DNA of 64,000 nt, from assembly GCA_021850325.1 (NCBI GenBank), contig JAJZMF010000048.1:1-64000 (forward strand), read 5' to 3'. The notes under the pieces are model-generated. The model saw only the letters and a list, made by a program, of their open reading frames with translations. It was not told the origin of the DNA and did not search any database. The translations under genes were made by a program, and so were the position numbers. Every line of letters begins with the position of its first letter. Position 1 is the first letter of the stretch. Of this stretch, positions 13,800 through 45,998 are shown in pieces. Source of the DNA: Actinomycetes bacterium (lineage in GTDB: Bacteria > Actinomycetota > Acidimicrobiia > Acidimicrobiales > Palsa-688).

Positions 13800-14918
13800 C
13801 TAGCTCGCCGGGTGCTCGCGCGAGCGCAGGTCGTTCGCCTTGTCCTCCAGCGCCTGCAGGAGCTCGTCGAAGCTCTTGGAGAACGACGAGACGCCTTCCT
13901 CTTCCAGCTGGCGGGCCACGTCGGCCATGTCGATGCCTGCTTCGGCCAGGTCGTCCAGGTGCGCCTGGGCCTGGTCGACGTCCTGGTCCACCGAGCGTGC
14001 CACCACACCGTGGTCCTTGAAGGCGTCGACTGTGGCGTCGGGCATGGTGTTGACCGTGTGGGGGCCGATGAGCGTGCCCACGTAGAGCAGGTCGGGGTAG
14101 GCGGGGTTCTTGGTCGACGTCGAAGCCCACAGCGGCCGCTGCGGGTGTGCCCCCCGCTCGGCCAGGGCCTGCCAGCGCTCGCCACTGAACCTGCTCTCGA
14201 AGAGCCGGTAGGCCAGCTTGGCCTGTGCGACGGCCGCCTTGCCCCGCAGCGACGCCAGCTCCGGCCGGCCCGACCGGTCGAGGCGGCGGTCGACCTCGGT
14301 GTCCACTCTGCTCACGAAGAACGAAGCCACACTGTGCGTGCGTGACAGGTCCCCACCCGAGGCCGCCAGGGCCTCCAGGCCCGATATGTAAGCCTCTATC
14401 ACAGCTTCATACCTCTCGAGGCTGAAGATGAGCGTGACGTTGATGTTGCGGCCCTCGGAGATCATCTGCCGTACCGCCGGCACCCCGGCCTCGGTGGCCG
14501 GGATCTTCACCATCAGGTTGGGCATGTCGATGGTCTCGTGGAAGTGCCGCGCGTCCCGCACGGTGCGGTCGGTGTCATAGGCGAGACGGGGCGAGACCTC
14601 CAGGGAAACGAAGCCGTCACCGGTGCCGCTCTGCTCGTAGAGGGGGTGCAGGATCTCGAGCGCTGCCGTGACGTCGGCTGTGGCCATCTCCCAGAACGCC
14701 TGCTCCACCGAGCCGCCTTCGATGAGGCGCGCGAAGTCGGCCGTGTAGACATCGGTGCCGGTCATCGCCTTCTGGAAGATCGTGGGGTTGGACGTGACCC
14801 CGCGGATGCCCTCGTCCACCATGTTGGCCAAGCGGCCACTGCGGACCGCGTCGCGCGAGAGATTGTCGATCCAAGGGCTCTGGCCGCCCTCGTTGAAGAG
14901 CTGGTGGAGCAGGGTCAT
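13800..14918 (-). CDS. tal: Transaldolase (actinobacterial type)
   Basis: 372 residues, matching the long transaldolases of actinobacteria. It transfers a dihydroxyacetone unit between sugar phosphates. Landmarks: SLEVSPRLAYDT, NLMVKIPATEAG with the Schiff-base lysine, GRNINVTLIFSLERYE, and STSTKNPAYPDLLYV. The start is fixed by AGGAGGT 7 nt before ATG 14918. Four nt separate it from the upstream tkt stop and four from zwf. Core gene of the operon. Confidence 0.96.
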   Translation of the reverse strand: MTLLHQLFNEGGQSPWIDNLSRDAVRSGRLANMVDEGIRGVTSNPTIFQKAMTGTDVYTADFARLIEGGSVEQAFWEMATADVTAALEILHPLYEQSGTGDGFVSLEVSPRLAYDTDRTVRDARHFHETIDMPNLMVKIPATEAGVPAVRQMISEGRNINVTLIFSLERYEAVIEAYISGLEALAASGGDLSRTHSVASFFVSRVDTEVDRRLDRSGRPELASLRGKAAVAQAKLAYRLFESRFSGERWQALAERGAHPQRPLWASTSTKNPAYPDLLYVGTLIGPHTVNTMPDATVDAFKDHGVVARSVDQDVDQAQAHLDDLAEAGIDMADVARQLEEEGVSSFSKSFDELLQALEDKANDLRSREHPAS

Positions 14919-40510: not shown

Positions 40511-43240
40511 GTGGCTCTCACAGCGTCCCATCGGGCAGGCCCACCGGGGGGCGACCTGAGGTCGTCGTTCCTGGCCGGCCTCAGCTTCGAGCCGGACCCC
40601 TACCAGCTCGAGGCCCTGCAGGCCCTGGACGAGGGCCACAGCGTGGTCGTCGCTGCGCCCACGGGCTCGGGCAAGACGCTCGTGGCCGACTACGCCGTGG
40701 CCAGGGCGCTGGCCGAGGGGGGCAAGACCTTCTACACCACGCCCCTCAAAGCGCTGTCGAACCAGAAGTACGGGGACTACGTCCGGCTCCACGGCGCCGG
40801 GAGGGTGGGCCTGCTCACGGGGGACAACTCCATCAACGGTGAGGCGCCGGTGGTGGTGATGACGACCGAGGTCCTGCGGAACATGGTCTACGCCGGGTCC
40901 GCCACCCTGAGCGGCCTGCGCTACGTGGTGCTGGACGAGGTCCACTACCTCCAGGACCCCTACCGGGGACCGGTCTGGGAGGAGGTCATCATCCACCTGC
41001 CCCCGGAGGTGGACCTGGTCTGCCTGTCGGCGACCGTGTCGAACGCCGAAGAGCTGGCGGACTGGGTGGCCACAGTGCGCGGCTCGACCCGGGCCGTCAT
41101 CGAGGAGCGTCGGCCGGTCCCCCTGCACAACCTCTTCATGGTGGGGGACCGCCACAGCGACAGCGTGCTGCTCATGCCCACTCTGGTCGAAGGCCAGCCC
41201 AACCCCCGTGGCCTCGCCCTGGGCCCTCCTGCGCCCTCGGGCCTGCAAGCCCGCAGGCGTAGCCGCCTCTTCGCCCCCCGGCGTACGGAGGCGGTGGAGC
41301 TGCTGGACCAGGAGGGCCTACTGCCCGCCATCTACTTCATCTTCAGCCGGGCCGGCTGCGACGAAGCCGTACGCCAGTGCCTGCGGGAGACCAGGCGCCT
41401 GACGAGCGCCGCCGAGCGGCGCCAGATCCGGGCCATCGCCGAGGAGGCGGCGAACAACCTCTCGGCCGCCGACCTCGAGGCACTGGGCTACGGGTCGTGG
41501 CTGGCGGGGCTGGAGGCAGGCTTCGCCGCCCACCATGCCGGGCTCGTGCCACCGTTCAAGGAGGCGGTGGAGAAGTGCTTCGCGGCCGGCCTGGTGAAGG
41601 TGGTCTTCGCCACCGAGACACTGGCACTGGGGATCAACATGCCCGCCCGCTCGGTCGTGGTGGAACGGCTGTCCAAGTTCGGGGGCGAACGGGTGGAGCC
41701 CCTCACGCCGGGCGAGTACACCCAGCTCACCGGCCGGGCAGGGCGCCGGGGCACTGACGACGAGGGCTATGCCGTAGTCCTCTGGGCGGCCAACGTCAGC
41801 TTCGACCAGGTGGCATCGCTGGCCGGTTCGCGCACCTACACCCTCACCTCCAGCTTCCGGCCCACCTACAACATGGCCACCAACCTGGTGCGCCGCTGCT
41901 CACCGGAGAACGCCCACCACCTGCTGAACCTCTCCTTCGCCCAGTACCGGGCCGATGCCGAGGTCGTCCGCCTGGAGCGCCAGCTCGAACGGGCCCGGGC
42001 GGAGCTCGTCGTGGCCAGGCAGGGTGCGCACTGCGAGCTGGGCGACGTCTTCGAGTACCGGCGGGCCATGGCCCCGGCGACCGGCGACGGGCCGGAGGCG
42101 GGCCGCCGGGCCGGTCCCAGGCAGGTGCTCGAGGCCATGGCCCGGCTGCGGCCGGGCGATGTCATCCTGCTGCCGGCGGAGCGGCACCGCGGCCCGGGCA
42201 AGGGGGACCATGCTGCCGTGGTGGCCACCTACCAGCGCCGGCGGGGGGAGGTGGGCCTCCGGGCGCTCACGGTGGACCGCAGGCTGGTGAGCCTCGGCGC
42301 CCGGGACTTCCGGGTGCCGCCGCTCGCCGTGGGCAGGGTGGAGCTCCCCACCCCGTTCGCACCGAGCAGCCGGGCCTTCCAGCGGCGGACCGCCGCCGCC
42401 CTGGAGGCGGGCTACGCCCGAGCCGTTGGCGGGCCGGCGGAGAGGCGCCGTGGGCGCGACCTGGCGGGCATGGCGGTGGCGAGCTGCCCCGACCTGCGGT
42501 CCCACCTGCGCGCCGCGGGGAGGACAGAGCGGCTCGGCCGTCAGGTGGAACGCCTCGAGGCGCAGGTGGTGGGCCGCACGGAGTCGCTCGCCCGGCAGTT
42601 CGACCGGGTCCTCGAGCTCCTGGGGAGCTGGGGCTACCTGAAGGACTGGGCGCTCACGCCGCCGGGGGAGCGCCTGTCGCGCATCTACCACCCCATGGAC
42701 CTGTTGGTGGCCGAGTCCTCCGAGAGGGGCATGTTCGAGGGGTTGCGGCCCGCCGAGCTGGCTGCGCTGGTCTCCGCGTTCACCTACGAACCGAGAGGCC
42801 CGGCCGGCCCGGAGGAACTGGCCCCCCAGGCCCCCAGCCGCCGCGCCCAGGAACGCTGGGAGGCTCTCCAGGCGCTCTCGGCCGAACTGGCCGCGGCCGA
42901 GGCGCACAGGGGCCTACCGGTTACGCGCCGGCCCGACCTGGGCTTCGCCCGGGCCGCCTTCGAGTGGGCGAGCGGCCGGAGCCTGGCCCGGGTGCTCGTG
43001 CCTGCCGACCAGGGGGGGCGTCAAGGGCCACCGACCATGTCGGCGGGCGACTTCGTCCGCAACATCAAGCAGCTGGTCGACCTGCTGCGCCAGCTGGCGG
43101 AGGTCCTACCGGGCAACGCTGAGGCCATGGCCGCCAGTGAGGCGGCGGCCCTGCTGTTCCGGGGCGTGGTGGTCGTTTCGTCGCTGCCCGGGACGGGGCC
43201 GGCCAGGGGCCCCTTGAGGCCGGCCACCCCCGGTCCCTAA
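40511..43240 (+). CDS. helY: Ski2-like DEAD/H helicase HelY
   Basis: 909 residues, close to mycobacterial HelY. Motif I APTGSGKTLVA, motif II DEVH, motif III LSATVSN, and motif VI QLTGRAGRRGTD define an active superfamily 2 helicase; the C-terminal part with DSHCT-like domain follows. GTG 40511 has AAAGG 5 nt before it; the longer upstream frame shadows the radical SAM gene. Order tatA-tatC-helY is as in Mycobacterium. Its stop codon TAA lies inside the TAACCT box of the next gene. Confidence 0.94.
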   Translation: MALTASHRAGPPGGDLRSSFLAGLSFEPDPYQLEALQALDEGHSVVVAAPTGSGKTLVADYAVARALAEGGKTFYTTPLKALSNQKYGDYVRLHGAGRVGLLTGDNSINGEAPVVVMTTEVLRNMVYAGSATLSGLRYVVLDEVHYLQDPYRGPVWEEVIIHLPPEVDLVCLSATVSNAEELADWVATVRGSTRAVIEERRPVPLHNLFMVGDRHSDSVLLMPTLVEGQPNPRGLALGPPAPSGLQARRRSRLFAPRRTEAVELLDQEGLLPAIYFIFSRAGCDEAVRQCLRETRRLTSAAERRQIRAIAEEAANNLSAADLEALGYGSWLAGLEAGFAAHHAGLVPPFKEAVEKCFAAGLVKVVFATETLALGINMPARSVVVERLSKFGGERVEPLTPGEYTQLTGRAGRRGTDDEGYAVVLWAANVSFDQVASLAGSRTYTLTSSFRPTYNMATNLVRRCSPENAHHLLNLSFAQYRADAEVVRLERQLERARAELVVARQGAHCELGDVFEYRRAMAPATGDGPEAGRRAGPRQVLEAMARLRPGDVILLPAERHRGPGKGDHAAVVATYQRRRGEVGLRALTVDRRLVSLGARDFRVPPLAVGRVELPTPFAPSSRAFQRRTAAALEAGYARAVGGPAERRRGRDLAGMAVASCPDLRSHLRAAGRTERLGRQVERLEAQVVGRTESLARQFDRVLELLGSWGYLKDWALTPPGERLSRIYHPMDLLVAESSERGMFEGLRPAELAALVSAFTYEPRGPAGPEELAPQAPSRRAQERWEALQALSAELAAAEAHRGLPVTRRPDLGFARAAFEWASGRSLARVLVPADQGGRQGPPTMSAGDFVRNIKQLVDLLRQLAEVLPGNAEAMAASEAAALLFRGVVVVSSLPGTGPARGPLRPATPGP

Positions 43241-43243
43241 CCT
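43238..43243 (+). promoter_or_regulatory. -10 box overlapping the helY stop codon
   Basis: TAACCT starts with the helY stop codon and ends 6 nt before ATC 43250, the same arrangement as at the leaderless genes of this window. Confidence 0.45.
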
Positions 43244-43249
43244 GGGCGC

Positions 43250-44254
43250 ATCCGAAGCTGGCTGCTCGATGAGTCACCGGGGGAGTACCGGTGGGGGGAG
43301 GCCGGGCCGGCCCGCCCGGGACCGGGCCAGGTGGCGGTGCGCATGGTGGCGAGCGCGCTCAACCACATGGACCTGTGGCTGCGCCAGGGACTGCCCAGGC
43401 CGGGCCGTCTCCCCATGGTGCCGGGCTGCGACGGCGCCGGTACGGTCAGCGAGGTGGGGGAGGGCGCCGGCCCCTGGGCGCCCGGGGACGAGGTGGTCGT
43501 CAACCCTTCCATCGCCTGCGGCCACTGCCCTGCCTGCCTGGCCGACCGCTCGGTCGACTGCGCGCAGTGGGGGATCCTGGGCGAGCACTACTGGGGCACC
43601 CACGGCGAGGAGGTGGTCGTGCCCGGTGCGAACCTGGTCCGACGCCCGCCCGGCCTGTCCTGGGAGGAGTCGGCCGCCTACGGCCTGTGCGCGTTGACCG
43701 CCTACCGGATGCTGCAACGGGCGCGTCTGCGTGCCGGCGAACGGCTGTTGGTGGTGGGCGCCGGCGGTGGCGTGGCCAGTATGGCCATCGCCATAGGTGC
43801 CCGGACCGGCGCGGAGGTGCTCGCCACCTCGCGCCACGAGGCCAAGCGCCGGCGGGCGCTCGAGCTCGGGGCCGCCGAGGCCTTCGCAACGGGCGGGCCC
43901 GTACCGGTCAAGGCCGACGTGGTCGTCGACAGCAGCGGCTCGGCCACCTGGGCCGCCTCGGTGCGGTCCCTGGCCCGGGGAGGCCGCCTGGTCCTGTGCG
44001 GTGCCACGGGCGGTGCCCGGGTGGAGCTCGACCTGGCCCGCCTCTTCTACTCCCAACAGGAAGTGATCGGCTCCACGATGGGCACCTACCGGGAGTTCGC
44101 GGAGGTCACCAAGTTGGTGGCCGACGGCCTGCCGGTGGTCGTCGACAGCGTCCACCGCCTGGCCGACTACCCCTCGGCCCTGGACCGGCTCGGTGCGGGG
44201 GACCAGTTCGGCAAGGTCGTGCTCGACCACCGAGGTGTCACCACCACGACGTGA
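43250..44254 (+). CDS. Zinc-dependent alcohol dehydrogenase/quinone oxidoreductase, apparent ATC start
   Basis: 334 residues if read from 43250. Medium-chain dehydrogenase: structural-zinc cysteines in ACGHCPACLADRSVDC, NAD(P)-binding GAGGGVASMAIAIG, and NHMDLWLR near the start. Coding similarity to the family's N-terminal strand (IRSWLLDESPGEYRW ... PGPGQVAVRM) continues upstream of the first GTG (43331) to an ATC at 43250, where a Met is expected; helY ends 10 nt before. TAACCT sits 6 nt upstream. GTG 43331 would remove the first strand. Substrate unknown. Confidence 0.88.
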   Translation: MRSWLLDESPGEYRWGEAGPARPGPGQVAVRMVASALNHMDLWLRQGLPRPGRLPMVPGCDGAGTVSEVGEGAGPWAPGDEVVVNPSIACGHCPACLADRSVDCAQWGILGEHYWGTHGEEVVVPGANLVRRPPGLSWEESAAYGLCALTAYRMLQRARLRAGERLLVVGAGGGVASMAIAIGARTGAEVLATSRHEAKRRRALELGAAEAFATGGPVPVKADVVVDSSGSATWAASVRSLARGGRLVLCGATGGARVELDLARLFYSQQEVIGSTMGTYREFAEVTKLVADGLPVVVDSVHRLADYPSALDRLGAGDQFGKVVLDHRGVTTTT

Positions 44255-44345: not shown

Positions 44346-45998
44346 ATGGGCGACAACAGCGTGGAGCTTCCCTACGTCGCGGAGACCTGGAGCCCTGACG
44401 AGGCCGAGGTCCTGCGGCGCTACTTCACAAACCTCGAGGGACCTGTCTTCGCCCTGGTCAACCTGCCCGAGGTGGTCAAGGGCGCCCTGTTCGCACGCTA
44501 CTCGAGGTCGGCAAAGAGCCTGCGCCGTCTCTTCCTGGACGAGTTCGTCGGCGACCTCGACGTCAGCGGTGACCACGGGGTGGACGCGACGGTCGGCCTG
44601 GCGCGGGCCGAGCAGCTGTACGAGAAGGTCTTCTTCGAGTACGGCGACGACTCCGTGGCCCAGCTGGGTGGCGTCCACCTGGCCTGTGAGCAGGCTTCCA
44701 ACCTGCTCACCAAGGTCCTGGAGCGGGGCCGGCTCATGTCCTACATGGAGAAGTCGACCCGCTACGTGGCCTACGACAGCCGGTTGCCGAGCGGCCATTA
44801 CCGGTACTACCGCAGCCCCGAGGTGCTGGCATCCTCGCTCGGGGCACGCTACGTCGGCGACATGGACCGCCTCTTCGATGCCTATGCCACGGCGCTGCCG
44901 GTGGCCTACGACTGGTTCGCCCGCAGTTCGGCCGTCGAGGGGGCCGGCAGCGACTTCGCCTATCGCCAGGCCCTCAAGGCCAAGGCGTTCGACACCCTGC
45001 GCGGCCTCCTGCCCGCCGCTGCGACCTCCAACCTGGGCATCTACGGGTCGGGCCAGGGTTATGAAGGCCTGCTCGTGCGCATGCGCGCCCACCCGTTGCC
45101 CGAGGCCCGTGCCTATGCCGACATGATGCTCGCCGAACTGCGCAAGGTCATACCGTCCTGGGTCCGCCGGGTGGACGTGGCCGACCGTGGGAACGCCTGG
45201 TCCGCCTACATCGACAAGAACACCTCCTCCATGTCGGACCTGGCGTCAGCCATCTTCGGGGACCAGGTCGAGGTGGCGGGTGGCCCTGGCAGCGGCCCGG
45301 TCGTCGACCTGGTCGACTGGGACCCCCAGGCCGAGGAAAAGGTCGTGGTGGCGATGCTCTACCCTTTCACCCACCTCTCGGAGGCGGAGCTGGTCGAGCG
45401 CGTGGCGCTCATGCCCCACGAGCAGCGGCTCGAGGTCATGCAGAGGTACGCCGGTGAGCGGCTCAACCGTCGCCACCGCCCCGGCCGGGCCCTGGAGAGG
45501 GCGTACTACCGGTTCGATGTCGTCTCCGACTACGGCGCCTTCCGGGACCTCCAGCGCCACCGGATGCTGACGGTTGAGTGGCAGGGCCTGACCCCCCATC
45601 ACGGCTACACCATGCCCGAGGCGGTCGTCGAGGCCGGGTTGGAGGGTGCCTACACCCAGGCCATGGAGCGTTCGGCAGCGCTGTACGCAGTACTGGCTGC
45701 CCAGTTCGGCCCGACGGTCGCCGGTTATGCCGTGACATTGGCCCACCGGGCCCGCTATTCGCTCCAGCTCAACGCCCGCGAAGCCATGCACGTGCTCGAG
45801 CTGCGCACGACCGCCCAGGGCCACCCCGAGTACCGCCGAGTCGGCCAGCAGATGCACACGCTCATCGCCCAGAAGGCCGGCCACCGGGCCCTGGCGCAGA
45901 TGATGAGCTTTGTCGACCACTCCACCTACGGCGACGAGCTGGGACGTCTGGAAGCCGAGAGGCGCGCCCAGGAGCGTCGCAGCGGCCAGGTGGGCTGA
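44346..45998 (+). CDS. Tandem ThyX-like (FAD-dependent thymidylate synthase-like) protein
   Basis: 550 residues, about twice the size of ThyX, with two ThyX-like halves. In the first, RGRLMSYMEKSTRY aligns with the ThyX motif RHR-x7-S, keeping the Ser but with Gly for His. In the second, RHRMLTVEWQG keeps RHR but has Gly for Ser. Long forms like this occur in actinobacteria and are usually annotated as thymidylate synthase; activity is uncertain. TAGGCT lies 10 nt before ATG. The stop codon lies within an intrinsic terminator. Confidence 0.85.
   Translation: MGDNSVELPYVAETWSPDEAEVLRRYFTNLEGPVFALVNLPEVVKGALFARYSRSAKSLRRLFLDEFVGDLDVSGDHGVDATVGLARAEQLYEKVFFEYGDDSVAQLGGVHLACEQASNLLTKVLERGRLMSYMEKSTRYVAYDSRLPSGHYRYYRSPEVLASSLGARYVGDMDRLFDAYATALPVAYDWFARSSAVEGAGSDFAYRQALKAKAFDTLRGLLPAAATSNLGIYGSGQGYEGLLVRMRAHPLPEARAYADMMLAELRKVIPSWVRRVDVADRGNAWSAYIDKNTSSMSDLASAIFGDQVEVAGGPGSGPVVDLVDWDPQAEEKVVVAMLYPFTHLSEAELVERVALMPHEQRLEVMQRYAGERLNRRHRPGRALERAYYRFDVVSDYGAFRDLQRHRMLTVEWQGLTPHHGYTMPEAVVEAGLEGAYTQAMERSAALYAVLAAQFGPTVAGYAVTLAHRARYSLQLNAREAMHVLELRTTAQGHPEYRRVGQQMHTLIAQKAGHRALAQMMSFVDHSTYGDELGRLEAERRAQERRSGQVG

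Follow-up and report, generated by a model that had tools for sequence, protein, structure and literature searches.

Comparative evidence for a conserved ATC or ATA start codon in a leaderless-type dehydrogenase gene of one actinobacterial family

The window analysed here is a stretch of 64,000 nucleotides on the forward strand of contig JAJZMF010000048.1, which belongs to a draft assembly of 49 contigs (GCA_021850325.1, genome G000). It contains a helY-type helicase gene followed by the gene of a zinc-binding dehydrogenase (Table 1). The junction between them reads cccTAACCTgggcgcATCcgaagcTGG: the helY stop codon TAA provides the first three bases of the box TAACCT, and six bases separate this box from an ATC codon. 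The dehydrogenase frame is free of stop codons from 43241 to 44251, and the earliest ATG, GTG or TTG codon that it contains is the GTG at 43331.

Both Pfam domains of the dehydrogenase exceed the Pfam cut-off, and the closest solved chain in a profile search is 2eih (E = 1e-83). The AlphaFold model has a mean pLDDT of 92.9; residues 2–6 and 13–17 form strands. The gene that follows (44346–45998) looks by sequence like a ThyX-type flavin-dependent thymidylate synthase and has homologs in G001, G004 and G017. Two tandem matches to zinc-type alcohol dehydrogenases, about 1 kb apart, were also noted (L002 and L005, G000:C35:38115-40127).

Table 1. Features at the junction of helY and the dehydrogenase gene (window coordinates).
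Feature	Position	Strand	Basis
helY-type DEAD/DSHCT helicase gene, 5' limit putative	40520..43240	+	Pfam DEAD 2e-28, DSHCT 2e-26; ORF end; stop TAA 43238-43240
TTGAGG, possible -35 element, 18 nt upstream of the -10 box	43214..43219	+	weak: 4/6 matches to TTGACA
TAACCT, -10-like box (TANNNT), TAA common with the helY stop	43238..43243	+	sequence; TANNNT spacing in orthologs
ATC start codon, predicted transcript 5' end	43250..43252	+	aligned with ortholog ATG/GTG starts
Zinc-binding medium-chain dehydrogenase/reductase, 334 aa + stop TGA (44252-44254)	43250..44254	+	Pfam ADH_N 4e-24, ADH_zinc_N 8e-19; AlphaFold model
GTG codon 28, first canonical in-frame start, rejected as true start	43331..43333	+	would lose strands 2-6, 13-17 and W4, L6, P10, G11

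Orthologs of the dehydrogenase were drawn from the GTDB family of the window, from its order and from public genomes. The non-redundant set has 76 members, which at the position of 43250 carry ATG (60), GTG (11), ATC (four) or ATA (one), with no other codon represented. Twenty more order-level loci, partly overlapping with this set, have ATG (16) or GTG (4). ATC is found in the window genome, G010, G022 and G025, and ATA in G017, all of them within the family; GTG occupies the position in G001, which is of the same genus as the window, and in G004, G018 and G026 of the family. The ATC/ATA sequences are divergent, with 66–70% protein identity to that of the window, and none has ATG. Given the local composition, ATC, ATA or ATT would occur at a given codon with a chance of 0.7–2.2% per sequence, so that five cases out of five at the aligned Met are not attributable to chance. 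An ortholog match at E ≤ 1e-60 is absent from 22 of the 32 family genomes.

In the tree, the five ATC/ATA genes and that of G001 form one clade (support 95/92), to which the GTG-started genes of G004 and G018 are sister; the wider class has mainly ATG. To account for this distribution it suffices to assume one origin of ATC/ATA and a subsequent reversion of G001 to GTG, the sequence of changes being ambiguous. Judged from the aligned sequences, the ATC/ATA start is a lasting trait of the dehydrogenase gene within one bacterial family.

The start itself is tightly bracketed. All five ATC/ATA genes have an in-frame stop codon at -12, with which the -10 box begins, and a tryptophan at codon 4 is invariant across 28 aligned orthologs, these five included. 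Between the two, the five genes offer no plausible start other than ATC/ATA. With a TANNNT box and an in-frame stop at -12 on one side and the invariant Trp4 on the other, ATC/ATA is therefore the sole plausible start. Over codons 2–27, pairwise differences number 85, 82 and 149 at the first, second and third codon positions, an excess that was matched in two of 20,000 column shuffles. The DNA upstream lacks such a codon-position pattern (0.67, 0.59 and 0.70 differences per site). By this measure, codons 2–27 evolve under protein-level constraint.

These data bear out the original prediction in several respects: it had placed ATC 43250 at the expected Met, which agrees with the aligned starts of the 76 orthologs and the conservation of codons 2–27, and had extended the coding pattern upstream of GTG 43331, where the frame is open and evolves as protein. 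Initiation at that GTG, the next canonical start, was rejected. The comparison with relatives that had been called for places the ortholog starts at the 43250 position rather than at 43331, and a start at codon 28 would sacrifice the invariant W4, L6, P10 and G11. It would also cost two strands, as residues 2–6 and 13–17 are strands in the model; the loss of the first strand and of the conserved N-terminus had been foreseen.

A start-lost pseudogene, or an ATG miscalled as ATC by sequencing or assembly, is very improbable and was rejected as well. The window does come from a single draft assembly, but four further assembled genomes of the family bring to five those with ATC or ATA, which excludes a miscalled ATG in practice, and the frame and N-terminus are under protein-level constraint.

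The region upstream of the start was then compared among orthologs. Of 84 ortholog rows, 73 carry a TANNNT box 12–14 nt ahead of the start codon; in the five ATC/ATA genes its position is -12 without exception. This spacing, which would put the start of transcription on the start codon or immediately beside it, supports a leaderless arrangement, as originally proposed from TAACCT lying 6 nt before ATC. No conserved -35 signal above control was detected across orthologs. Pairing with the anti-Shine-Dalgarno sequence amounts to -3.5 kcal/mol in the window genome, +0.2 in G017 and -2.5 in G022, that is, these three are without Shine-Dalgarno sequence; the -10 region pairs with -9.2 kcal/mol in G010 and -7.4 kcal/mol in G025.

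The helY gene is also found just upstream of the dehydrogenase in G001, G010, G017, G022 and G025. Only in the window genome and G022 does its stop overlap the -10 box, at -12 relative to ATC, and in both the helY TAA is in the frame of the dehydrogenase. In G010, G017 and G025, helY ends 77–112 nt upstream and in other frames. The proposed use of the helY stop as -10 box is thus correct for the window, but it extends to just one (G022) of the four other ATC/ATA genomes. From these layouts, the overlap is a local economy, not a conserved design. The common frame could recall a HelY-dehydrogenase fusion made by read-through of the helY stop codon, an idea given hardly any credence as the frames differ in G010, G017 and G025, where helY ends upstream.

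The same neighbourhood raises the question of a helY read-through transcript, on which ATC would mainly be used through re-initiation or a weak Shine-Dalgarno sequence, the mRNA not being leaderless. Two observations speak for it: helY directly precedes the dehydrogenase gene, with a stop at -12 in two genomes (that of the window and G022), and G010 and G025 show Shine-Dalgarno-like pairing. In G010 and G025, initiation helped in this way could take place on a helY transcript that reads through. As a general explanation it is rather unlikely, since the helY stop varies in position (-12, -77, -95, -112) and frame, three of the five genomes are without Shine-Dalgarno sequence, and it is the spacing of the -10 box that is conserved.

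The extent of such initiation was examined in a census of leaderless-type starts covering 1.263 Mb of the 3.18 Mb of G000 (1015 predicted genes on contigs C31, C15, C17, C25, C21, C13 and C26). A site was defined as TANNNT 6 or 7 bases before an in-frame codon near the gene start. ATG was found at 58 sites (34 with 6-nt and 24 with 7-nt spacing) and GTG at 76 (39 and 37, respectively), 134 together. TTG was found once (2.7 expected), CTG nine times (11.5 expected) and ATC four times (3.2 expected). Among the four ATC sites, only 43250 is without an upstream canonical start, and no other credible leaderless-type start at ATC, ATA or ATT was found in this 1.26 Mb. Nor did a pairwise comparison of G000 genes with those of G001, G004 and G017 yield a second convincing case, the candidate list being noisy. 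As ATG and GTG make up the leaderless-type starts elsewhere in the census, the dehydrogenase is an exception; use of ATC/ATA/ATT starts throughout the genome was rejected for want of an excess at the leaderless-type sites censused.

ARAGORN analysis of 43 tRNA loci identified one initiator tRNA, with a CAU anticodon and a GGG/CCC stem; none of the 43 resembles an initiator while having a different anticodon. A recoded genome or altered initiator tRNA was rejected, as the CAU initiator is ordinary and the censused leaderless-type sites show no excess of AUH starts.

The infC gene, which encodes IF3, starts with ATA behind AAGGAG in all seven family genomes with a readable infC N-terminus (G000, G001, G017, G022, G010, G004 and G018; loci L159, at G000:C12 near 14015-14221, L160, L161, L163, L164, L165 and L167), with a Shine-Dalgarno pairing of about -9 kcal/mol. 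Such an arrangement fits with autoregulation of IF3, known from E. coli and S. aureus. Because infC starts with ATA in seven family genomes, near-cognate codons probably function in initiation in this lineage.

Comparison thus establishes the position of the start, the conservation of ATC/ATA in the clade and, in the sequence examined, the restriction to one gene. We consider it probable that the dehydrogenase is read from ATC 43250 on a leaderless mRNA by the normal initiator tRNA, and that this initiation is weak and sensitive to IF3. The -10 box TAACCT, overlapping the helY stop, would direct a transcript beginning at 43250. The initiator tRNA with its CAU anticodon would take AUC as a near-cognate start at the 5' end and insert fMet, giving the predicted N-terminus fMet/Met-RSWLLDESPGEYR. 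Initiation would be weak, and throttling by IF3, whose own gene is AUA-started, may keep the enzyme dose low. A weak and IF3-sensitive start is made likely by two precedents: in S. aureus, output from conserved AUU/AUA starts is around 10% of that from AUG (PMC13009471), and some leaderless mRNAs are inhibited by excess IF3 (PMC9031893). It is a more tentative suggestion that a lineage-conserved AUC/AUA on a leaderless mRNA without Shine-Dalgarno sequence acts as an IF3-responsive throttle, and that the dehydrogenase and the AUA-started infC make up a small IF3-controlled gene set.

A rival reading, judged less probable than not, is that the same ATC start is merely tolerated: little enzyme would be needed, and ATG would have drifted to ATC/ATA without regulatory meaning. 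Codon turnover within the clade (GTG in G001, ATA versus ATC in g16) and the 22 family genomes without an ortholog match are in keeping with it. The odd codon is not essential, as the nearest genome, G001, has GTG. Drift accounts less well for five divergent sequences that keep A-T-C/A and never ATG, and for leaderless starts that are ATG/GTG only elsewhere in the censused genome.

Leaderless translation is described as requiring AUG, or GUG in actinobacteria. Confirmed initiation at ATC on a leaderless mRNA would show that, in nature, a near-cognate codon can serve as start at a bare 5' end, without AUG/GUG or a strong Shine-Dalgarno sequence. The dehydrogenase start would then be suited to testing how IF3 discriminates on leaderless mRNAs. 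Gene callers limited to ATG, GTG and TTG truncate the N-terminus of such proteins.

In the literature searched, no report of an AUC start on a leaderless mRNA was found, and the dehydrogenase shares features with two known groups. Like leaderless genes of actinobacteria (mycobacteria, Streptomyces), it would have its start codon at or near the 5' end of the mRNA, as deduced from TANNNT about 6–7 nt before the start. Theirs is AUG or GUG, whereas that of the dehydrogenase is AUC or AUA; an AUG/GUG start is usual but not strictly defining for this group. The review PMC9031893 describes AUG as the efficient leaderless start, joined by GUG in certain actinobacteria.

The second group comprises genes with AUH starts. 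Like infC of E. coli and S. aureus (AUU/AUA), the dehydrogenase has a near-cognate start kept by evolution, here AUC or AUA and conserved in relatives. It differs in that infC has a clear Shine-Dalgarno sequence (AAGGAG in the family of the window), whereas the dehydrogenase looks leaderless and lacks one in three genomes out of five; moreover, infC encodes a translation factor and the dehydrogenase gene does not. Outside these two groups stands Deinococcus deserti, a bacterium noted for leaderless mRNAs. Non-canonical initiation codons were reportedly described in it by Baudet in 2010 (as cited in PMC3564903), a likeness to the present case. Within the AUH group, the staphylococcal cvfC1 and ccpN (AUU/AUA) are, like the dehydrogenase gene, ordinary genes with a conserved non-canonical start, which in their case gives low translation (PMC13009471). 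The AUU start of pcnB in E. coli, cited in the same source, likewise goes with low translation. In the S. aureus cases, the weak start is guided by extended pairing with a Shine-Dalgarno sequence, whereas the dehydrogenase has a -10 box in that position. As read from these sequences, it is a conserved near-cognate start, of a kind already known from infC and pcnB, placed in a leaderless setting.
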